A stretch of DNA of 64,000 nt. Origin: Gammaproteobacteria bacterium. Its GTDB lineage: Bacteria > Pseudomonadota > Gammaproteobacteria > UBA6429 > Thiohalophilaceae. Each line of letters begins with the position of its first letter. The stretch's first letter is position 1. The notes below the pieces were generated by a model that saw nothing but the letters and a program-made list of their open reading frames with translations, made no database searches and was not told the origin of the DNA. The position numbers and the translations under genes were made by a program. The stretch is from the NCBI GenBank assembly GCA_016194635.1, contig JACQBC010000037.1, positions 124,001 through 188,000 on the forward strand, read 5' to 3'. Below, one piece after another: positions 3,169 through 53,480 of this stretch.

Positions 3169-3593
3169 ACGTTTTCCCCATTCCTAAGGTCATAAGGCGT
3201 TATTGAGATCCAAACTGGATGAAGATACCCGATATTCAAATAGGCGTATCACGCCAAAATTGCTGGGGATCTCACATATTTTGTAATTGTTGTTTTCTGG
3301 AATTACCGCTTTATGGCCGCAGGAGTGAGGCGGGTAACGCATGGATATGATCGTGGGTGACAGGGATGTCGCCGCCGAGCTACAGGGACGTATTTATGCG
3401 TGTCATATCCATGCGTTACCCGCCTCACTCCTGCAACTAACGTCCAACCCCTGCGTTATCTCGCGCAAGGCACTGCAGGTGCTTACCCGTTTGGAGCGAT
3501 GAGTCATACCAAGACCCCACTTTATCCTGGCATCGTGCCCGCGGAATGGGGATAATTGGCAGTCTATTCTCGCCACGCTCAAAGGAGAATCCC
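3169..3593. other. Gene-free stretch holding foldback element A
   Basis: Lies between the divergent lipoprotein and thioredoxin-fold genes. The only strong structure is the foldback element at 3319-3434. The AT-rich part at 3225-3315 probably holds the lipoprotein promoter, but no clear -35/-10 pair could be assigned. Confidence 0.6.
3319..3434 (+). repeat. Foldback element, copy A (32-bp perfect arms, 52-nt core)
   Basis: Left arm 3319-3350 and right arm 3403-3434 are perfect reverse complements over 32 bp (left arm begins GCAGGAGTGAGGCGGG). The core, 3351-3402, aligns without gaps to the cores of copies C, D and E: AGGGAT, then GAG at core positions 26-28, TACAGGGA at 31-38 and GTATT at 40-44. 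The arms share no sequence with the arms of the other copies. No target-site duplication is visible. Confidence 0.9.
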
Positions 3594-24580: not shown

Positions 24581-25172
24581 GATTGCCTCCTTAGATAGTA
24601 TTAATTTTTGGCAAATACTGCTGACGCCTTGATTAAGCCGTCATTAAGATACCTGCCACTGTATGCGGGGCATGAAGCCCCTGCTTTTTATTCCCGCTTA
24701 ATGGAATTGCTCGGCACGTGCGGGTATTGCGTCGTTATAAAGCTAAACATTAGTAAAATAAAATTAGTTTGCTTGCAATAAAAATATTACAAATTTTAAG
24801 CCGCACTTTATAGAAAAGTGCGCAGGCGTGTGCATGTCATGGAAACCACTCGAACAAACGGGCAATAAATTAATAATTAATTAAATTAATATTAAATATT
24901 TATTAATACGCCACAGTGTGATGCGCGCGCGGATCTGGCCTCATCGGCGATTACCAGGCGGCTGATAATTTCAATACCAGGGGATTTATGGTGGTGGGTT
25001 GAACGGTAAAGGCGAAGCCCAGTTACTATAAATGAGGCGTATGGATAGGATACCCCTCCACCAAGACCGTCCGCCGCAGGGATGCTGCTGTCGAGTCTAC
25101 GGGGAGGTATTACGGCGTGTCTTGGTGGGAGGGTATCCTTTCCATGTGACTCCGTAATAACATGGAGAAGTG
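24581..25172. other. Gene-free stretch holding foldback element B
   Basis: The part from 24601 to 25030 is AT-rich and contains no gene I can support; it should hold the YeiH promoter. The right part holds foldback element B at 25041-25145. Confidence 0.6.
25041..25145 (+). repeat. Foldback element, copy B (27-bp arms, 51-nt core)
   Basis: Left arm 25041-25067 and right arm 25119-25145 are reverse complements at 24 of 27 positions. The core, 25068-25118, matches the shared core: GCAGGGATGC, TCGAGTC, TACGGGGAGG, TATT. The right arm and the bases after it (CCATGTGACTC-GTAAT) are nearly identical to copy C, so B and C form one sub-family. It lies 27 nt past the last gene of the chromate-type operon. 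Confidence 0.88.
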
Positions 25173-37988: not shown

Positions 37989-38378
37989 ATGAACAAAAAA
38001 ATCCAATTACTAATGAGTCACATGGAAAGGATACCCTCCCATCAAGACCGTCAGCCGCAGGGATACGGCTGTCGAGTCTACAGGGAGGTATTGACGGTGT
38101 GTCTTGGTGGGAGGGTATCCTTTCCATGTGACTCAGTAATATATGCACCCAGCGATACGGGTGCGGTACAACCTGGACGAGGATTGTTGTGTGGCATGGT
38201 TATACTACTGTTGGCGGGATCAGGTTGTACTTCAGAACGCGCCTATGACTCCGGCCAAGCCTACCAGCGCAACGAATGCAACAAGATCCTCGACAACAAT
38301 GAACACGAACGCTGTCTAAACAAAATCAACACAAGTTATGACGATTATAAGCACCAAACCGAGGAGATCAAACAATAG
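37989..38378 (+). CDS. Small lipoprotein whose signal peptide is interrupted by foldback element C
   Basis: The frame begins MNKKIQLLM after AAGGAGTCGGTA, an ideal basic n-region, but is then taken over by element C (38015-38134), whose translation has no hydrophobic core. The frame stays open and resumes with VILLLAGSGCTSERAYDS, a hydrophobic segment plus lipobox, and a polar 50-residue tail containing CNKILDNNEHERCLNKI and ending KHQTEEIKQ. I infer that the element inserted between n-region and h-region of an ordinary small lipoprotein without shifting the frame. An internal ATG at 38196 could still start a short product but would lack the basic n-region. Function of the lipoprotein unknown. 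Confidence 0.6.
   Translation: MNKKIQLLMSHMERIPSHQDRQPQGYGCRVYREVLTVCLGGRVSFPCDSVIYAPSDTGAVQPGRGLLCGMVILLLAGSGCTSERAYDSGQAYQRNECNKILDNNEHERCLNKINTSYDDYKHQTEEIKQ
38015..38134 (+). repeat. Foldback element, copy C (34-bp arms, 52-nt core)
   Basis: Left arm 38015-38048 and right arm 38101-38134 pair at all 34 positions, with one G-T wobble. The core, 38049-38100, reads CGTCAGCCGC, AGGGATACGG, CTGTCGAGTC, TACAGGGAGG, then TATT. The arms match those of copy B. The flanks ATTACTAAT and AGTAAT extend the symmetry loosely. Confidence 0.9.
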
Positions 38379-39014: not shown

Positions 39015-42000
39015 ATGGATACCACCACCCTACACGATTTTCTTGAAGCCGCCCCCGACGCCATGTTGTTGGTGAACGCGCGCGGTGAGATCGCCCAGGC
39101 CAATGCCCAGGCGCTGCGGTTGTTCGGTTACAGCGCGGCCGAGCTTATCCAACAAAGCATCGATATCTTGGTGCCACAATCGGTGCGTGGTACTCATGCC
39201 GCGCGACGTGAAGCCTATCAGCATGATCCCAAGGCCCGGCCGATGGGCGCCGGCATCGAACTGGTCGGCTGTCGCAAGGACGGCAGCGAGTTCCCGGTGG
39301 AGATCAGTTTGTCGCCGATGCCGTTCGCGGGCGAACCCTTCACCGCCGCGGCGGTGCGCGACATCAGCGAGACGCGACGCGTGCTGCGCGAGTTACGCGA
39401 ATCACAGGAGTACAACCGTGGTCTGATCGAATCCAACATTGACGCGCTGATGACCACCGATCCACTTGGGCTCATCACCGACGTCAATCGTATGATGTGC
39501 GAGATGACCGGCCACCCGCGCGAAGCCTTGATCGGCAGGCCGTTCAACCGGTATTTCACCGATCCGAAACAGGCTGATGCCGGGATTCGCAAAGTGCTTG
39601 CGGAAGATCGTGTGACCAACTACGAATTGACGTTGTGTTCGCGTGATGGTAAGGAAACCATGGTTTCGTACAACGCCACGACTTTTAAAGATGCTAACGG
39701 CCGCTTGAAAGGTGTGTTCGCCGCCGCGCGCGACATCACCGCGCAGAAGTTGCTGGAAGAAGAGTTGCGCCAAACCCAGAACTATACGCGCGGTTTGATC
39801 GAATCCTCGGTGGACGCGCTGGTGACGGTCGATCCCGACATTGTCGTCACTGACGTCAACGAGCAAATGATCAAACTCACCGGCTACACCCGCGAAGAAT
39901 TGATCGGCAGCGCTTTCACCGATTATTTTCCCGAGCCTGAACGCGCGCAAAGCGGCGTCAAAAAAACCCTCGACGAGGGTTTTGTTACCGACTACGTACT
40001 GGTATTACGTGCCAAGAACGGCAAGGAAACCACGGTATCGTTCAATGCCTCGGTGTTTAAGGATACCGAAGGCCAGGTCAAAGGCATCTTTGCCGCGGCG
40101 CGTGATATCACCGACCAGAAGCGCCTGGAAGAACAATTACGCCAAGCGCAGAATTATACCCGCGGCCTGATTGAATCCTCGGTCGACCCGATGATCACCG
40201 TTGATCCCAGCCTCACCATCACCGATGTTAACCAACAGATGGTGCGGCTCACCGAGATCTCCAAGGAGCAGCTGATCGGCAGCCGTTTTGATGGCTATTT
40301 CACCGAACCCGATCGCGCGGCTATCGGGGTGCGTAAGACCCTGAAAGAATCCTACGTCACCAATTACGAGCTCACCCTGCGCACGCCCAGCGGGCGCGAG
40401 GTGTTGGTATCGTTTAATGCCTCGGTCTTCAAGGACACTGAGGGTCTGGTCCGGGGAATTTTTGCGGTGGCGCGCGATGTTACCGCGCAACGCGGTTTGG
40501 AATATGAACTGCGCGAGCAGCAAAACTATTCGCGTGGCCTGATCGAGGCCTCCGTCGATGCGCTCATGACGGTCAACCCCGAAGGGGTGATCACCGACGT
40601 CAACGAACAAACTGTTAAACTCACCGGTTACAACCGCAAGCAATTAACCGGCAGCCCGTTCGCGCAATACTTCACCGACCCGGATCGGGCGCGGCTTGGT
40701 GTGCGTCAGACCTTCGACGCGGGTGCGGTGACCAATTACGAATTGATCTTGCGCAGCCGGGGGGGCGCCGAAACGGTGGTATCGTTCAATGCCTCGGTGT
40801 TTAAGGATACCGCCGGACAAGTCGCGGGTATTCTCGCCGGTGCGCGCGACATCACGCAGCAGAAAAAGATCGAACTGGCGGTACGCGACCAACAGGCCTA
40901 CAACCGTGGTTTGATCGAGTCTAATATCGACGCGCTGATGACCACCGATCCGATCGGTGTCATCACCGATGTCAACCGCCAAATGTGCGCCATCACCGGA
41001 CGCGCCCGCGAGGAGTTGATCGGTACACCGTTCAAAAATTATTTCACCGATCCGCAGCGTGCCGAGGACGGTATCCGCAAGGTGCTGGCTGAAAGCCGGG
41101 TGACCAACTACGAGCTGACGCTGCGCGCCAAGGACGGCAAGGAAACGGTGGTGTCGTATAACGCCACGACCTTCACGAGCGAAGACGGGAAGTTGCGCGG
41201 TGTATTCGCCGCGGCGCGTGATATCACCGCGCAAAAAAACTTGGAAGAACAATTTCGACAGGCACAGAACTACACGCGCGGCCTGATTGAATCCTCGGTC
41301 GATGCCATGCTCACTGTCGATCCCGATCTGACCATTACCGATGTCAATGAACAGATGGTGAAACTCACCGGTTACACCCGCGATCAGTTGGTCGGCAGCG
41401 CGTTCCAAGATTATTTCACCGAGCCCGATCGCGCCAGCAGCGGGGTTAAAAAAACCCTTAACGAGGGTTACGTCACCAACTATGAACTCACGCTACGCTC
41501 GCGCCACCGGCGCGAGATCCTGGTGTCCTTCAACGCTTCGGTGTTCAAGGACACCGAGGGCAAGATCAAAGGCATTTTTGCGGTGGCGCGCGATGTTACC
41601 GAGCAGCGCCGTTTGGAAGAGCAACTGCGCGAACAGCAGAACTATTCACGCGGCCTGATCGAATCCTCGGTCGATGCGCTGGTAACCGTGGACCCGGACA
41701 TCGTCGTTACCGACGTCAACGATCAAATGATCAAACTCACCGGTTACGCGCGCGAAGAGCTGGTCGGCAGTCCGTTCAAGGATTATTTCACTGAGCCGGA
41801 TCGCGCTGCCGCCGGTGTGCGTAAAACCCTGGGCGAAGGTTCGGTGACCAATTACGAGCTGGTGCTCAAATCCAAAAGCGGTAAACGCACGGTGGTGTCA
41901 TTTAACGCCGGTACCTTTCGCGATACCGCCGGGCGTGTTGCAGGTATCCTGGCGGCGGCGCGCGATATCACCGCCCAGAAGCGCCTGGAAGAACAGTTGC

Positions 42001-44774
42001 GTGATCAACAGAGTTATAACCGCAGCCTGATTGAATCCTCGGTCGACGCGTTGATGACGGTTGATCCCAACGGTGTAATCACCGACGTCAACGATCAAAC
42101 CGCCAAGCTGTTCGGCTACAACCGCAAGCAATTGATCGGCAGTCCCTTCAAAGAATATTTTACCGATCCCGAGCGGGCCCAGACTGGCGTGCGCCAGACC
42201 TTCGAGGCGGGTAGCGTGACTAACTATGAATTGGTAGCGCGTGCTAAGACCGGGCGTAAGCTGCCAGTATCATTTAACGCCGCAGTGTTTCGCGACACTG
42301 CCGGGCAAGTGGTCGGCATCCTAGCGGCGGCGCGCGATATCACCGAACAAAAACGCATCGAGTTGCAATTGCGCGAGCAGCAGACCTATACCCGTAGCCT
42401 GATCGAATCCAATATCGATGCGCTCATGACCACCGACCCGCTCGGGATCATTACCGACGTCAACCGCCAGATGTGCGAGGCCACCGGACGCGCGACGGAA
42501 GAACTGATCGGCACACCGTTCAAGCATTATTTCACCGATCCACAGCGTGCCGAGGCCGGGGTGCGCCAAGTGTTGGCCGAAGACAAGGTGACGAACTATG
42601 AACTCACCATCCGCGCCAAGGATGGACGCGAAACCGTGGTGTCCTACAACGCCACCACCTTTCGCGACGCCGACGGCCGCTTGAAGGGCGTGTTCGCCGC
42701 CGCGCGCGACATCACCGAGCAAAAGCGTCTTGAAGGTCAGATCACCCTGCGCAACCAAGAACTCACCGAGGCCACGACCTTTCTCAACAACGTGCTCGAA
42801 TCCTCGACCGAGTATTCGATCATCGCCAAGGACTTGAAAGGGAATATTCTTACCTGGAACGAAGGCGCGCGCCGCAACTACGGTTACAACGCCGAAGAAA
42901 TGGTCGGCAAGGGCAATACTTCGCTGTTGCACACGCCCGAGGACTTGGCCGGCGGGCGGGTCAAGGCGCTGTTTGAACAGGCGCTGGCCTCTGGCAAGGC
43001 CGAAGGTGTATTCGAACGCCGCCGCAAATCCGGCGAACGCTTCACCGCCAGCGTCTCCATGACCCTGCGCCGCGACGCCGGCGGCACGCCCGTTGGTTAC
43101 TTGCTGATTTCCAAAGACATCACCGAGCAAAAGCGCTTGGAAGAACAACTCACACGCAAGAACGAGGAACTGGAAGAACAATATCGGCGCGTGCAAGAGG
43201 CCAATCGTTTGAAGAGTGAGTTCCTCGCCAACATGTCGCACGAGTTACGCACGCCCTTGAACGCTATCATCGGTTTCTCCGAATTGATGCACGACGGCAA
43301 GGTCGGTCCGGTCTCACCCGATCACAAAGAATATCTAGGCGATATCCTCACCAGTTCCAAACATCTGCTGCAATTGATCAACGACGTGTTGGATCTCGCC
43401 AAGGTCGAATCGGGTAAGATGGAATTTCATCCCGAGCCGGTGGAGCTGACCAAGATCATCGGCGAGGTGCGCGACGTGTTGCGCACGCTGATGTCGCGCA
43501 AGCACATCAATGTCGGTATCGAGGTCGACCCCGGACTCGCGAGCATTGTGGCCGATCCCGCCAAGCTCAAGCAGGTACTATATAACTACCTGTCCAACGC
43601 GCTGAAGTTCACCCCCGAGGGTGGCAAGGTGGTGGTGCGCGCGCAAGCTGAAAGTACCGAACACTACCGTATCGAAATCCAAGACAGTGGCATCGGTATT
43701 AAGGCCGAGGACATGCACCGCTTGTTCATCGAATTCCAGCAACTGGATACCAGCATGGCCAAGAAATACCAAGGCACGGGCCTGGGATTGGCGTTGACCA
43801 AGCGCATTGTCGAGGCCCAGGGCGGACAGGTCGGTGTCAGCAGCAAGGTCGGAAAAGGCAGCGTGTTCTACGCGGTGTTGCCGCGTGTCATGCAGGGAGG
43901 CGTTGAGGTTGAGGTCGCAGCGCTGTCGCCAGAACTGCTGCGGGGTGCCGCACGGGTTCTGGTGGTTGAAGACAATCTGCAGGATCGTGTCTGGTTGCAG
44001 CAGGTTTTGCAAACCGAAGGTTATAACGTTGAGACCGTCGGTAATGGTAACGAGGCACTCAATCGCTGTGGTGCCAGCCGTTATGATGCCATCATGCTCG
44101 ACATCCTCTTACCCGATATCACTGGCTGGGAGGTATTGAAGGGCATGCGTGCGCACGGACCCAATCAAAAAACCCCGGTGATCGTGACCTCGGTCACCAG
44201 TGATGCCCATGTTGGTCAGGCTTTCACGATCCACGGTTTTCTGATGAAGCCGGTGGATCGCGACGAGTTATTGCAAACACTGGAGGAGGCGAAGATTACC
44301 GTCGGTGGCCCGGGTCGCGTGCTGGTGGTGGACGACGATCCGCATGCGTTAAAGATCATGGAAAAATCCTTGCAAGATCTAGGCTATCATCCCTTGATCG
44401 CGTCCGAGGCTCGAAACGGTTTGATTCTGGCACACCAGGACCCCCCCGACGCGGTGATCCTCGATCTGCTGATGCCCGACGTCGACGGCTTTGAGTTCCT
44501 ACGCCAATTTCGAGGTGTTGCGGGCTGTGCCGACGTGCCGGTGATGATCTGGAGCGTGAAAGACCTAAGCGCGGACGAACGCAAACAATTGCAGAGTGCC
44601 GCGCAGGCGATCATCACCAAGGGCAGTCAGGAAGGGATTACGCCTTTATTAAATGAATTGCGCAAACACCTGTCGCTGCCTCCTACAGCGACCACCGACT
44701 CACCCTCGATCACGGCGGCGAAACCGAACGGCGTGTCTAAACGCGCGACCCGCGGGAGTCGACGTGGCCGATGA
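39015..44774 (+). CDS. Multi-PAS hybrid histidine kinase with eleven PAS domains and two receiver domains
   Basis: A 1919-residue cytoplasmic sensor kinase without transmembrane helices. Order: PAS1 (about 1-125); nine near-repeated PAS units of exactly 124 residues (133-1248); PAS11 (about 1255-1375, more diverged, with NYGYNAEEMVGK); a coiled-coil linker; HisKA with H1409 in NMSHELRTPLN; HATPase with YLSNALKFTPEGG, DSGIGIK and GTGLGLALTK; two receiver domains, phospho-Asp in IMLDILLPD and VILDLLMPD. No cofactor-binding PAS residue can be assigned. The gene overlaps a CheY-like gene by 11 nt and is followed by a c-di-GMP protein, so the three likely form one phosphorelay. Confidence 0.93.
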   Translation: MDTTTLHDFLEAAPDAMLLVNARGEIAQANAQALRLFGYSAAELIQQSIDILVPQSVRGTHAARREAYQHDPKARPMGAGIELVGCRKDGSEFPVEISLSPMPFAGEPFTAAAVRDISETRRVLRELRESQEYNRGLIESNIDALMTTDPLGLITDVNRMMCEMTGHPREALIGRPFNRYFTDPKQADAGIRKVLAEDRVTNYELTLCSRDGKETMVSYNATTFKDANGRLKGVFAAARDITAQKLLEEELRQTQNYTRGLIESSVDALVTVDPDIVVTDVNEQMIKLTGYTREELIGSAFTDYFPEPERAQSGVKKTLDEGFVTDYVLVLRAKNGKETTVSFNASVFKDTEGQVKGIFAAARDITDQKRLEEQLRQAQNYTRGLIESSVDPMITVDPSLTITDVNQQMVRLTEISKEQLIGSRFDGYFTEPDRAAIGVRKTLKESYVTNYELTLRTPSGREVLVSFNASVFKDTEGLVRGIFAVARDVTAQRGLEYELREQQNYSRGLIEASVDALMTVNPEGVITDVNEQTVKLTGYNRKQLTGSPFAQYFTDPDRARLGVRQTFDAGAVTNYELILRSRGGAETVVSFNASVFKDTAGQVAGILAGARDITQQKKIELAVRDQQAYNRGLIESNIDALMTTDPIGVITDVNRQMCAITGRAREELIGTPFKNYFTDPQRAEDGIRKVLAESRVTNYELTLRAKDGKETVVSYNATTFTSEDGKLRGVFAAARDITAQKNLEEQFRQAQNYTRGLIESSVDAMLTVDPDLTITDVNEQMVKLTGYTRDQLVGSAFQDYFTEPDRASSGVKKTLNEGYVTNYELTLRSRHRREILVSFNASVFKDTEGKIKGIFAVARDVTEQRRLEEQLREQQNYSRGLIESSVDALVTVDPDIVVTDVNDQMIKLTGYAREELVGSPFKDYFTEPDRAAAGVRKTLGEGSVTNYELVLKSKSGKRTVVSFNAGTFRDTAGRVAGILAAARDITAQKRLEEQLRDQQSYNRSLIESSVDALMTVDPNGVITDVNDQTAKLFGYNRKQLIGSPFKEYFTDPERAQTGVRQTFEAGSVTNYELVARAKTGRKLPVSFNAAVFRDTAGQVVGILAAARDITEQKRIELQLREQQTYTRSLIESNIDALMTTDPLGIITDVNRQMCEATGRATEELIGTPFKHYFTDPQRAEAGVRQVLAEDKVTNYELTIRAKDGRETVVSYNATTFRDADGRLKGVFAAARDITEQKRLEGQITLRNQELTEATTFLNNVLESSTEYSIIAKDLKGNILTWNEGARRNYGYNAEEMVGKGNTSLLHTPEDLAGGRVKALFEQALASGKAEGVFERRRKSGERFTASVSMTLRRDAGGTPVGYLLISKDITEQKRLEEQLTRKNEELEEQYRRVQEANRLKSEFLANMSHELRTPLNAIIGFSELMHDGKVGPVSPDHKEYLGDILTSSKHLLQLINDVLDLAKVESGKMEFHPEPVELTKIIGEVRDVLRTLMSRKHINVGIEVDPGLASIVADPAKLKQVLYNYLSNALKFTPEGGKVVVRAQAESTEHYRIEIQDSGIGIKAEDMHRLFIEFQQLDTSMAKKYQGTGLGLALTKRIVEAQGGQVGVSSKVGKGSVFYAVLPRVMQGGVEVEVAALSPELLRGAARVLVVEDNLQDRVWLQQVLQTEGYNVETVGNGNEALNRCGASRYDAIMLDILLPDITGWEVLKGMRAHGPNQKTPVIVTSVTSDAHVGQAFTIHGFLMKPVDRDELLQTLEEAKITVGGPGRVLVVDDDPHALKIMEKSLQDLGYHPLIASEARNGLILAHQDPPDAVILDLLMPDVDGFEFLRQFRGVAGCADVPVMIWSVKDLSADERKQLQSAAQAIITKGSQEGITPLLNELRKHLSLPPTATTDSPSITAAKPNGVSKRATRGSRRGR
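39411..42758 (+). repeat. Nine tandem 372-bp PAS units inside the kinase gene
   Basis: Each unit begins at a codon for Tyr in 'Y-N/T/S-R-G/S-L-I-E' and the starts are 39411, 39783, 40155, 40527, 40899, 41271, 41643, 42015 and 42387, always 372 bp apart. Units 1, 5 and 9 share 'ESNIDALMTTDP' and 'TDVNRxMC'; units 4 and 8 share 'NRKQL' and 'GVRQTF'. This four-unit pattern suggests duplication of a 1488-bp block. Confidence 0.93.
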
Positions 44775-49393: not shown

Positions 49394-50092
49394 ATGGGCA
49401 TTACACGACACATTGAACGCCATAGAACCCAACGCATCGGCTGGCTGCGCGCGGCGGTGTTGGGCGCAAACGACGGTATTGTTTCCACGGCCAGCCTTGT
49501 CTTAGGTGTAGCGGCGGCAGGCGCGAGCACAAGCAGTATTTTGATCGCGGGTGTGGCCGGTTTGGTGGCGGGAGCGATGTCAATGGCGGCGGGCGAATAT
49601 GTGTCGGTGAGTTCGCAGGCCGATACCGAACGTGCCGATTTAGATCGAGAACGCAAGGAGTTGGCGGCCGCCCCCGAACAAGAGCAGGCCGAAATGACGG
49701 CTATTTATATCGAGCGTGGACTGGATGCGACGCTGGCCGCCGAAGTCGCTAGACAACTAATGCTACATGACGCTCTCGGCGCGCACGCGCGTGACGAACT
49801 GGGGATCTCCGCGCTATTAAGCGCGCGACCGGTTCAAGCGGCATTGGCTTCGGCGCTGACTTTTTCCGCGGGCGCGCTGCTACCGTTGTTGATAGTGCTT
49901 TTGATGCCGTTGGCGGCGATCATAGGGGCGGTGGCGGGTAGCACATTGGTGTTTCTGGCGTTATTGGGCGCGCTCGCGGCGCGCACCGGTGGCGCGTCGG
50001 TGTTGACGGCCACCACGCGGGTTACGTTCTGGGGCGCCTTGGCGATGCTATTGACGGCGGGGGTAGGGGCGTTGCTTGGGGTAACGGCTTAA
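49394..50092 (+). CDS. VIT1/CCC1-family iron or manganese transporter
   Basis: A 232-residue membrane protein: GWLRAAVLGANDGIVSTASLVLGVAAA as helix 1, AGAMSMAAGEYVSVSSQADTE as the helix-2 signature, an acidic cytoplasmic loop rich in Glu (ELAAAPEQEQAEMTAIY), and three further C-terminal helices. This matches the VIT family that moves Fe2+ or Mn2+. Its 3' end overlaps that of the convergent GDYXXLXY gene by 4 bp. Confidence 0.9.
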   Translation: MGITRHIERHRTQRIGWLRAAVLGANDGIVSTASLVLGVAAAGASTSSILIAGVAGLVAGAMSMAAGEYVSVSSQADTERADLDRERKELAAAPEQEQAEMTAIYIERGLDATLAAEVARQLMLHDALGAHARDELGISALLSARPVQAALASALTFSAGALLPLLIVLLMPLAAIIGAVAGSTLVFLALLGALAARTGGASVLTATTRVTFWGALAMLLTAGVGALLGVTA

Positions 50093-50625
50093 ATTTTTTC
50101 ATCTTGGCATGAAACAGTTTGTGCCGGTGTAGTAGCGGGCTGTGATAACCATTGAAAATCTGCATCACAGACCCCTGTCAACACCGCTTCACCCTTGGTG
50201 CTCACCCGGAACCGCCCATAACGCGCGTTGTTATAGGTCGCCGCCTGCCCTTCTTGAAAGAAGAACGCATCGGTGGCGATTTTGACCGCGCCGCCACGCA
50301 TCCGGTAATGCAATAAATAATCCCCCTCGTGCAGCGGTTCGTTTGTATTATGCAGGCGTACAAATTCGGCCACTTGGTTTTTATCCAACCGCACCACGGC
50401 ATCGCCATCGACATCCGTGCTGGAGGCAGTTATAGATTCAATCGCTTGTGTCAAGCGGTAACGCAGCGCCATGTAGTCGCCTTGTAACAGCGAGCGCGGG
50501 TCGCGCGGCGCCAAATCCAATAACATCACACGGCCGTTGGCGAGGGTATGTTGTTTGCCGATGATGAGGCTATTCACAGCGGCTAGGATAATAACCAGCC
50601 CCAACCATAACACTACCTTACGCAT
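50089..50625 (-). CDS. GDYXXLXY-domain membrane-anchored protein
   Basis: A 178-residue protein with an N-terminal helix (VVLWLGLVIILAAVNSLII) and the family motif LLQGDYMALRY near residue 65. Domain family GDYXXLXY is usually encoded with DUF4401 and DUF2157 proteins, as here. The function of the trio is not established. Overlaps the DUF4401 gene by 8 nt. Confidence 0.85.
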   Translation of the reverse strand: MRKVVLWLGLVIILAAVNSLIIGKQHTLANGRVMLLDLAPRDPRSLLQGDYMALRYRLTQAIESITASSTDVDGDAVVRLDKNQVAEFVRLHNTNEPLHEGDYLLHYRMRGGAVKIATDAFFFQEGQAATYNNARYGRFRVSTKGEAVLTGVCDADFQWLSQPATTPAQTVSCQDEKI

Positions 50626-51742
50626 GGCCGGCCTCGCGCTGTTGCACGCGTAGCAAATACCAGCCGACTAAAAGCAGCGCACCGCTGCCTAGTAAGGTAT
50701 AGGATTTATGCAATAACGAGACTTCGATGCCGTAGAAGAATGTGGTCAGGAAAATACTAAAGAAGGCGATGGCGATACCGGTGATCAGGCGGTTGGCGGA
50801 CTGAAACCCAAGCAGTATCACCAGCAGGGATAACACCAAGCCCGGCGCTTTCCAACTCAGCCCGATAAATGCCGCCGCGCCGATCAGACAGACTATTTTA
50901 ATGGTGTCGCGCACCGGGGTTGTCGTGCCATGGGTTAATCGCACAACCGTATATAAGAGTACCCCACCCAGGGCCAGGGTGGAAAGCCACGGACGGGGAA
51001 AGATCGCGGTGTGCGGCAGTTCGGGCAAGACATAGACCGTCGACAGCAACATCGTGGCCAACATGCCGATCAACACCGCGTAGTGGATGGGGACGTATAC
51101 CTTGGCAAACGGGGTTGTATAGTACCTACCTTCAGACAAGACCAGGTGCACGAAGCCCATTGCTAACACCAGGATAAGCCCATGGATGAATAACGCCGCG
51201 TCATATATATAGAACAGGATTACGGCTTCGGCGATCATGGCGATGCAGGCGAGGAATCGCAGGGTGTTATCGGGATAAACTGCAACCAACAACGCTTGGC
51301 TGAGTATCAGACTGACCAGGATCTGGGTTTCGGCGGTGTGCGAACCGTAGCTATGGAGGTAGTGATCGGATAGGAGGGCGATACCAACCGCCAATAACGC
51401 TTCGCCCGCCAAGCATACCGCCAAGCAACATTGAACTAGAAATTCCTGGGCGTGCTGTCGTCGCACTAGGGTCGCGCTAACCAGGCACACTATACTAAAG
51501 AGTAGCAAGGCCGAGCGTTCAAAACTATCGTGGAAGATTAACCAGCCCAATAAGGCGATAAATCCCAGCAAAAATAGGCTGGCGAACCACGCCCCCAGTG
51601 CGATGAATCCGCGGATATACCACGCGGAAGATTCCGCCTCGCTGCAAAACTCCGCGGCCAGCGGCTCGGACCAGTTGGCGGCCACCAGCCCTTCGTGTTG
51701 CAGCTGTGCGAACACGCTATCCAGGGTTGGGATGGGCATCAC
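50618..51742 (-). CDS. DUF4401 membrane protein
   Basis: A 374-residue protein with about ten hydrophobic helices after a short N-terminal region (DSVFAQLQHEGLV). Position and composition fit DUF4401, the usual middle gene of the DUF2157-DUF4401-GDYXXLXY trio. It overlaps both neighbours (26 nt upstream, 8 nt downstream), so the three are translated together. No catalytic motif seen. Confidence 0.78.
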   Translation of the reverse strand: MMPIPTLDSVFAQLQHEGLVAANWSEPLAAEFCSEAESSAWYIRGFIALGAWFASLFLLGFIALLGWLIFHDSFERSALLLFSIVCLVSATLVRRQHAQEFLVQCCLAVCLAGEALLAVGIALLSDHYLHSYGSHTAETQILVSLILSQALLVAVYPDNTLRFLACIAMIAEAVILFYIYDAALFIHGLILVLAMGFVHLVLSEGRYYTTPFAKVYVPIHYAVLIGMLATMLLSTVYVLPELPHTAIFPRPWLSTLALGGVLLYTVVRLTHGTTTPVRDTIKIVCLIGAAAFIGLSWKAPGLVLSLLVILLGFQSANRLITGIAIAFFSIFLTTFFYGIEVSLLHKSYTLLGSGALLLVGWYLLRVQQREAGHA

Positions 51743-52823
51743 TGTTTCTCCACTGCTGACGGATCGCGCGCAACCAGCGGCTCATGGTATAGATCTGCCC
51801 AATGATCGCCCCTCCAATGAATAATAAAACCAACATCCATCCGCCGATATCCCAATGCAGATTATCGATCGAACTAAAAACCGTCTTCACCAATAAAGAC
51901 GACAGGATAATGATCCAACTGAATAAAATCACCGCCAGCATAAACATATCGCGCCGCCGGGTTTGATAAAACCAGAATCCCGCGACGGTGCCGCTGATAT
52001 ACAACACCGGACTCAACACGGAAAAACGCGCGCCATTATCGCCGTGCCCATCAAACAGCAGCGATAAAACATTTGCCATGACCATTATTAATGCAACAAA
52101 GCCCAATAAACGCGGCAGATAACGTGATTGCAACCAGTCTGGGCCGCGCAAGGCAAGCGCCTCCCATGCCAGGACACTCAGCGCATTGAGGATAAACAAC
52201 CATTGCGCCAAACCAATATCAAATAACCGCTGTAGGATCCATTGTAACGGCCCCCCGCTACGCCAACCTTGCCAGCGCGGCGGATGCAACACTTGCGCCC
52301 AGTACAATATCAGACTCAGATCCAGTAGTACCATCACCAATAACCATAACCCCGCCGAGCGGCCGATCAATGCCCATGGCAGAATCAATAACGCCCAGGC
52401 CACAAACAACCCATAGGGATCCGCGCCGGTTTGATAGGTTTGGCCGTACATGGCCAACGCCGCACCGACGAATACCGACGCGGCCAACAGTGCCGCCTTA
52501 CTGCCCGCCGACTCCAAACCGCGTAACCCCACGAGCATGACACACGCCAGCATTAAAATTTGTGGTAACGCTAGTTTGGCGTAGTAAGGCAACTGCGCCC
52601 AATTAAAGGCAAAAAACGCCAGCACACCCACCAGCAACAACGCCACCCCGCTGAACAGAAATAAACGTTGTAGAAATTGTTGCCAATCACTGGGCCGTGG
52701 CGTCACTCCGGCGATCTGTAGCACGCGGCTAAAACTCGCCGCGGGTAGGGATAAGACACGCGCTACAGTGCGCAGGTGTTGTGCTGACGCGGGTATGTTG
52801 ATCAAGGCCATGTCCCATACCAT
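51717..52823 (-). CDS. DUF2157 membrane protein
   Basis: A 368-residue protein with about ten helices. Typical DUF2157 sequence is seen in FFAFNWAQLPYYAKLALPQ and AMYGQTYQTGADPYGLFVAWALLILPWAL. First gene of the trio. The start may be the in-frame ATG at 52811 (MALINIPAS) rather than 52823; neither has a strong ribosome-binding site. Foldback element D lies 38 bp upstream. Confidence 0.82.
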   Translation of the reverse strand: MVWDMALINIPASAQHLRTVARVLSLPAASFSRVLQIAGVTPRPSDWQQFLQRLFLFSGVALLLVGVLAFFAFNWAQLPYYAKLALPQILMLACVMLVGLRGLESAGSKAALLAASVFVGAALAMYGQTYQTGADPYGLFVAWALLILPWALIGRSAGLWLLVMVLLDLSLILYWAQVLHPPRWQGWRSGGPLQWILQRLFDIGLAQWLFILNALSVLAWEALALRGPDWLQSRYLPRLLGFVALIMVMANVLSLLFDGHGDNGARFSVLSPVLYISGTVAGFWFYQTRRRDMFMLAVILFSWIIILSSLLVKTVFSSIDNLHWDIGGWMLVLLFIGGAIIGQIYTMSRWLRAIRQQWRNSDAHPNPG

Positions 52824-52861: not shown

Positions 52862-52981
52862 TTGGTGGTGGCCGGGTTCCCCCGGTGCCGGTGACTCGCT
52901 GTAAATACATCCCTGTACGCTCGATGGCGGCATTCCTGCCGCCAACGGTCACCCACACCGGGGGAACCCGGCCACCACCAA
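52862..52981 (-). repeat. Foldback element, copy D (34-bp arms, 52-nt core)
   Basis: Arms 52862-52895 and 52948-52981 pair at 32 of 34 positions. The core, 52896-52947, matches the shared core when read on the minus strand: CGTTGGCGGC, AGGAATGCCG, CCATCGAGCG, TACAGGGATG, TATTTACAGCGA. Arms resemble those of copy E but differ by several substitutions made in both arms. Confidence 0.9.
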
Positions 52982-53239
52982 CGGAGATAACATGACTTGT
53001 TTGCGAACAAAATAGATCAGAAGTCTGCTCGTCGCGTTGATAGTTATAGAGATAATTAGTGGTTCTGAATTTCCGAGTATTTCACTTAAGGTAATTCCAA
53101 GATGGATATCGGCTGGGGTTTCGTCGAGCAATTGTTGTGTCGAACTAAAGTCCGTGCATCCTTTTCCCTTATACATAGTAAAGTAGAACCATTTTTAGCG
53201 AAAGAAAGAAATCAATCCCAATTATCTCCGAGGATGCGG

Positions 53240-53357
53240 TTGGTGGTTACCGGGTTGACCGGTGTGGGTGACCATCGGCCGCAGGGATGCGGCCGTTGAG
53301 CGTACAGGGATGTATTTACAGCGAGTCACCCACACCGGTCAACCCGGTAACCACCAA
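53240..53357 (+). repeat. Foldback element, copy E (33-bp perfect arms, 52-nt core)
   Basis: Arms 53240-53272 and 53325-53357 are perfect reverse complements over 33 bp (TTGGTGGTTACCGGGTTGAC and so on). The core, 53273-53324, reads CATCGGCCGC, AGGGATGCGG, CCGTTGAGCG, TACAGGGATG, TATTTACAGCGA. Within it CGGCCGCA/TGCGGCCG makes a perfect inner stem closed by GGGA. Confidence 0.92.
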
Positions 53358-53480
53358 CTTCCTCCCCAGACGAAGCTATTTTTTTAATACACCGCTCACT
53401 CTTTCGGGACATCTACTTGAATCAACCGGCTATATTTGCACTATTATATATAGCATAACAACCTGTTATACCGAGCCAGC

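Follow-up and report, generated by a model that had tools for sequence, protein, structure and literature searches.

Two inverted stem-loop elements as members of a dispersed YPAL-like family with variable, paired arms in Gammaproteobacteria

A 64,000-nucleotide stretch of a gammaproteobacterial genome (positions 124,001 to 188,000 of contig JACQBC010000037.1, assembly GCA_016194635.1), referred to here as the window, contains two long palindromic elements, D and E, which lie in opposite orientation and have related arms that differ between the copies while remaining paired within each copy. The question raised by this locus is how the two arms of a copy come to change together and to what kind of element D and E belong. 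The preliminary description had proposed arm-to-arm gene conversion or hairpin-templated repair as the cause of the joint change and had suggested that the pair could be a composite that inverts the segment between its members.

Elements D and E and their family

The principal features of the locus are as follows.

52862-52981, minus strand (head strand): element D, whole, with stem arms at 52862-52895 and 52948-52981
52896-52947, minus strand: head of D, with two small hairpins, assigned from sequence, folding and family structure
52909-52914, minus strand: loop of D hairpin 2, AGGGAT
52932-52937, minus strand: loop of D hairpin 1, AGGAAT, one base off the ANGGAN form
52982-53239, no strand: D-E intervening segment, AT-rich
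53239-53358, plus strand (head strand): element E, whole, with arms at 53239-53272 and 53325-53358, perfect over 34 bp
53273-53324, plus strand: head of E, assigned from sequence, folding and family structure
53276-53295, plus strand: hairpin 1 of E, with loop AGGGAT at 53283-53288
53303-53314, plus strand: hairpin 2 of E, with stem TAC/GTA and loop AGGGAT at 53306-53311

The geometry first reported for this locus was reproduced: D and E form an inverted pair 258 bp apart with related arms and an AT-rich middle (GC 0.40), and a 9-bp inverted repeat, CGGAGATAA / TTATCTCCG, lies close to both ends of the intervening segment. The arms of E (53240-53272 and 53325-53357) are perfect over 33 bp, as had been stated, and an outer G-C pair (53239/53358) extends this to 34; those of D are 94% complementary, with one G.G and one T.G flaw adjoining the core. 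The differences between D and E had been said to occur in both arms of a copy. This holds for GG versus TA and for CCC versus GA, which are mirrored and amount to about four substituted pairs and a 1-bp indel, but there are two exceptions confined to one arm, which are the two mismatches of D. In RNA folding, the z-scores of E and D are −12.8 and −12.2, and none of 200 shuffles folds as well, so that these folds are not due to chance. A covariance model (R1) scores 79.8 bits on D (52886-52957, minus strand) and 87.5 bits on E (53263-53334, plus strand), but it should be noted that both were among its training sequences.

Both elements are in sense orientation to a downstream gene, D at a distance of 38 bp from a DUF2157 gene and E at about 123 bp from a gene for an Slp-family lipoprotein, but such a placement is not the rule in the family. 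No sigma-70 promoter or intrinsic terminator belonging to the D/E region was found, nor was an ortholog of the D/E locus, and the intervening segment has no second copy as a repeated unit among the other loci compared. Downstream of D, a three-gene set (DUF2157 / DUF4401 / GDYXXLXY) occupies 50089-52823 on the minus strand.

D and E are ordinary members of a large family of dispersed, non-coding mini-elements. A 19-base core pattern, with up to 2 mismatches allowed, gives 120 matches in the source genome (G000) and none when the pattern is reversed, and individual reading of the loci gives at least 104 distinct copies; the census rests on these core-pattern matches together with the loci read. 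Each copy has a variable stem, 25-49 bp long in the source genome, around a conserved head of about 52 nt with two hairpins. Besides D and E, the window contains three further copies, all outside the training set of the model.

3319-3434, plus strand: family member whose arms are unrelated and perfect over 32 bp, head at 3342-3411
25031-25160, plus strand: family member with class I arms, head at 25058-25128
38007-38141, plus strand: family member with class I arms, head at 38039-38110

The arms in the source genome fall into two classes, of which class I is fairly constant (TACTAATGAGTCACATGGAAAGGATACC...CAAGAC) and class II, which includes D and E, is highly variable, some of its arms having no kinship to those of any other copy. 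Derivation from the end of the flanking gene would be a possible origin of such unrelated arms, at sites that no close relative has in common. The same core is found with other arms in Marinobacter, Microbulbifer, Rheinheimera, Shewanella, Stenotrophomonas, Pectobacterium, Halopseudomonas and other Gammaproteobacteria, and of the 275 genomes of this class that were sampled, 53 have a match to the covariance model, for which 40 heads were used. A literature search with the exact words of the core returned no relevant paper. At the gathering threshold, an Rfam scan of the window returned solely an unrelated SAH riboswitch (RF01057; 500-582, minus strand, 57.8 bits). Another repeat in the window is internal to an open reading frame (39015-44774), in which head-to-tail repeats of 372 bp that are 62-76% alike extend over 39291-42735 and repeatedly show an RDITxQK motif like that of PAS/PAC sensor domains.

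Joint change of the arms and the strand on which they fold

Independent drift of the arms had been considered an inadequate explanation, and two comparisons bear this out. Over the inner 25 bp of the 42 class II copies of the source genome, an arm matches its own partner at 95.3% of positions and the partner from another copy at 43.1%; for 41 of the 42 the own partner gives the best pairing, and between copies 57% of left-arm positions are different. In orthologous loci of Stenotrophomonas, compared along a minimum-spanning arrangement of near neighbours only and over the inner 20 pairs, there are 25 double changes, where 3.4 would be expected with independent arms, and 22 of the 25 restore a Watson-Crick pair. 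A flank divergence of 0.134 was set aside, since badly aligned inner segments fall within the flank windows. Intermediates changed in one arm are common, and many such changes persist between species.

The residual mismatches are informative when each copy is oriented by its head before G-U and A-C are counted. On the head strand, the G-U:A-C ratio is 208:81 in other genera (81 versus 17 when counted by copy, p about 4e-11) and 103:33 in Stenotrophomonas; in the ortholog comparisons it is 96:21 for all arm pairs and 47:20 for the inner 20. Since a G-U on the head strand is an A-C on its complement, any process acting on double-stranded DNA, arm-to-arm conversion included, should yield equal numbers of the two, and the bias therefore indicates selection that maintains the folding of the head strand alone. 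Such selection on the folded head strand is thus shown in the relatives. In the source genome no bias was detected (28:27 in class II and 70:55 in class I), so that strand selection for D and E is inferred from the relatives. It should also be recognized that G.T outlasts A.C in single-stranded DNA, and the bias consequently fits RNA and single-stranded DNA alike. Given strand-specific selection, arm-to-arm conversion is not required, and this part of the original proposal, faced with the G-U bias, has not been established as the cause, although a contribution from hairpin-templated correction may be retained.

Two other accounts of the joint change have to be weighed against compensatory selection. 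In hairpin-templated repair, a polymerase switches to the opposite arm and copies a mutation into it, and no selection is needed; quasipalindrome correction by template switching is documented (PMC8604942, PMC8794818). Transversions, for which there is no G-U intermediate, make up half of the double changes (11 of 22 over the inner 20 pairs, 26 of 49 in another ortholog count), so that hairpin-templated correction may supply part of the double changes. The differences between D and E are clustered and include a mirrored 1-bp indel, and the near-perfect arms of the source genome, whose leftover mismatches have no strand bias, are also what this mechanism would give. As the main cause, however, it is a possibility that we hold to be somewhat short of an even chance, because it does not predict the excess of G-U over A-C on the head strand in other genera and at orthologous sites, many one-arm changes persist between species and no inverted spacer (head) is found among the orthologs. 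Alternatively, entire elements with ready-made arms might be swapped in by recombination or by fresh insertion. At one Stenotrophomonas locus (L286), both elements keep their place and orientation and the flanks are still 91-95% identical, yet the arms are distinct and very different alleles in mosaic combinations, as whole-copy replacement would predict. Within one allele at this same locus, however, a single pair occurs as A-T, T-A and C-G while the rest is nearly unchanged, and changes therefore also arise in place; moreover, the double changes were scored between near neighbours only. Replacement of whole copies accordingly appears unlikely as the general explanation. The paired orthologous loci form a natural test bed for the origin of stem perfection, in which compensatory selection can be set against template switching.

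Paired copies, mobility and known relatives

Among copies lying within 500 bp of each other in five genomes (G000, G096, G097, G100 and G102), 12 neighbouring pairs have their heads outward (−/+), none has them inward (p = 0.0005) and three are in tandem. In many Stenotrophomonas species homology ends at the outer borders of the pairs, and in some species the flanks are joined with 2 nt between them and the pair is absent. It follows that the Stenotrophomonas pair enters or leaves as one unit of about 450-600 bp. The suggestion that the pair is a composite unit is therefore supported by these pairs, which are present or absent as a whole, whereas the inversion of the middle that had been coupled with it finds no support in the orthologs. 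At one site (L284), the locus without the pair is a 21-bp terminator-like palindrome, 18-19 bp of which match both sides of the insert in filled sites, and this match points to duplication of the target or, alternatively, to terminators that the unit brought with it. At this and other Stenotrophomonas sites there is a dispersed composite of about 500 bp with GCAACAGC-rich inverted ends and two elements, several copies of which (query 411-919) occur per genome with about 76-90% identity.

An invertible switch for the AT-rich segment would be suggested by the 80-bp inverted repeats of D and E, which are 89% alike and separated by 297 nt, but the heads are never flipped, the 26 orthologous pairs of Stenotrophomonas in which both heads could be detected all agreeing in orientation and order, and no promoter or terminator pattern was found in the D-E region; we regard this reading as most improbable. 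Scarcely better placed, and very unlikely in our estimation, is a REP/BIME of the RAYT type, whose hairpins a Y1 (HUH) transposase would mobilize in single-stranded form. D and E share with such elements their palindromic form, intergenic location and many copies, and a transposase of single-stranded DNA would also select for folding of one strand; nevertheless, the Y1 transposase domain (PF01797) has no match in the source genome, which holds the most copies and is 99% complete, or in three copy-bearing relatives (G021, G023 and G029), there is no GTAG tag and the unit is 120 bp long. A Y1/RAYT transposase was therefore rejected as the mobilizer because of its absence from the source genome.

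The closest known relative is the YPAL repeat. De Gregorio 2006 reportedly deals with YPAL, or RU-2, according to papers that cite it. The printed sequence of RU-2 (YPAL of Yersinia) is 168 nt long (PMC2759123), and it aligns across the whole head of the present family, sharing with D and E the conserved internal sequence and the plan of head and hairpins (GCGTCCGCGCC-AAGGAT-GGCGCGG CTCGAG CCTACATGGATGTATTTACGGCGT). Because the head is the same, D and E are members of a YPAL-like superfamily. For YPAL elements, inverted repeats inside the element, duplication of 3-26 bp of the target, dyad symmetry at the targets and sites both empty and filled have been reported (PMC2229807). D and E likewise have internal inverted repeats forming a long stem-loop, and the likeness extends to the intergenic location; the Stenotrophomonas pair at L284, whose empty site is palindromic, offers a possible counterpart to the empty and filled sites, the target duplications and the targets with dyad symmetry. 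However, YPAL is about 167-168 bp long (or about 130 bp in a variant), whereas D and E are about 120 bp, and it has been reported from Yersinia and Erwinia, whereas the present family has a far wider range of hosts, arms free in sequence and outward-facing pairs. The Pectobacterium copies exceed the gathering score (70 bits) of the Rfam family Ysr224 (RF02770), the model of which represents the strand opposite to the head, whereas D and E reach only 23.5 and 22 bits. To judge by length, free arms and these 22-24 bits, D and E are not YPAL in the strict sense. The comparison joins a Yersinia repeat to a far larger gammaproteobacterial family, a wider version with a stem free in sequence and a conserved double head of predicted CsrA type. 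A further likeness is to the CGTC-1 REP dimers of Halothiobacillus neapolitanus, in which a conserved inner unit lies within 41-bp palindromes (PMC3733652) and 'attcacgG' recalls GTATTCACGGC; these are, however, described as REP dimers in target palindromes, with arms that fit one consensus.

Upstream of the head match at L016, a sequence that reads like the C terminus of an IS3-type transposase (SFFGTLKTERV) takes the place of the left arm and of some of the head. In Stenotrophomonas, other small palindromes are inserted within the GGA loops of hairpin 1 or 2 at L320, L322 and L324, and there are partial deletions of core or arms at L316, L318, L323, L325 and L326.

The head and its possible relation to CsrA/RsmA

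In the head, the stem meets hairpin 1 (columns 13-39), a GAG and hairpin 2 at a junction, and in hairpin 2 a closing helix (columns 41-43/61-63) surrounds a stem (44-46/53-55). When 25 proposed pairs were counted in 40 diverse heads with 10 arm pairs, 87.8% of the cells pair and 23 of the 25 pairs are changed on both sides; the covariation score is 0.652, whereas shuffling gives 0.172 ± 0.013 and sliding of the partners 0.07-0.18. Covariation across genera thus shows that the head fold is conserved. Both loops have the form A-N-GGA-N closed by C-G (C-A-N-GGA-N-G). For hairpin 2 this is informative at the N positions only, because A and GGA belonged to the search pattern, but pairing was the sole criterion for finding hairpin 1 (n = 211), which is conserved as follows: C 88%, A 90%, N, G 92%, G 91%, A 89%, N, G 88%. 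Columns 56 and 59, two bases apart, co-vary as T..A versus C..G (GTATTYAC versus GTACTYGC), a co-change that is common in Stenotrophomonas and Shewanella, with a loop of 2 nt that is too short for an ordinary RNA pair.

The SELEX consensus for CsrA is RUACARGGAUGU and the hexaloop bound by RsmE is ANGGAN (PMC7652899); CsrA sites are usually paired because the protein is a dimer (PMC4333381). Hairpin 2 of the family (GUACAGGGAUGU) is a full match to the SELEX consensus, and the head presents paired ANGGAN loops closed by C-G, hairpin 1 of D (AGGAAT) being a departure from the form, on a strand for which the excess of G-U over A-C indicates conserved structure in other genera, an excess not seen in the source genome. 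Binding of CsrA or RsmA to the head is therefore a strong guess from these motifs. The source genome encodes CsrA, which is also present in 238 of the 275 sampled genomes and in 51 of the 53 that carry the element, but this association is weak and confounded by descent, and the two element-bearing genomes in which CsrA was not found (G205 and G326) count against a strict need for the protein. Similar pairs of ANGGAN hexaloops closed by C-G are present in CsrB, RsmY and RsmZ; these, however, are single genes for small RNAs, whereas the present family has about 100 dispersed copies with sites that are predicted only. TwoAYGGAY RNA (RF01731) also has two hairpins with GGA loops and is a proposed CsrA-binding RNA (PMC4333381), and it had no match in the Rfam scans. 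No paper linking YPAL with CsrA was found in the literature searched.

The orientation of the head relative to genes is 23 sense and 23 antisense in other genera and 15 and 26, respectively, in the source genome, and the lack of a preferred orientation argues against a plain function in untranslated regions. An element of fixed orientation in such regions was rejected for want of a sense bias. What the orientation leaves open is transcription of the element's own, read-through from either side or a role of single-stranded DNA in mobility; with regard to the first of these, no enrichment of −10 sequences was found upstream of the arms in the source genome.

We tentatively suggest that the copies, up to about 100 per genome, may act together as a distributed decoy for CsrA, or place the neighbours of insertions under CsrA control, throughout the class, although we consider this reading less likely than not. 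If it is correct, it would account for loops that are conserved on a stem that is free in sequence but paired, and a selfish repeat would become part of the network of a global post-transcriptional regulator. In any case, the family gains a fold supported by covariation, and its only strongly conserved bases may be tied to a known protein-binding motif.

Taken as a whole, the best explanation, which we consider probable, is an element of the YPAL kind with a strand-selected stem, a head predicted to bind CsrA/RsmA and passenger-like spread. Both arms would change together chiefly through compensatory substitutions that keep one folded strand paired, and some double changes may also come from hairpin-templated correction at replication. 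The folded strand would be RNA, the paired ANGGAN hexaloops of which may dock a CsrA/RsmA dimer, and the elements would spread as transposon-like passengers, either singly or in outward-facing pairs inserted together as a unit.

Enlarged heads are present at L008, L027, L031, L036, L064, L066, L083, L084 and L197, where hairpin 1 encloses two or three extra small hairpins, each with a loop of the CA(N)GGA type.
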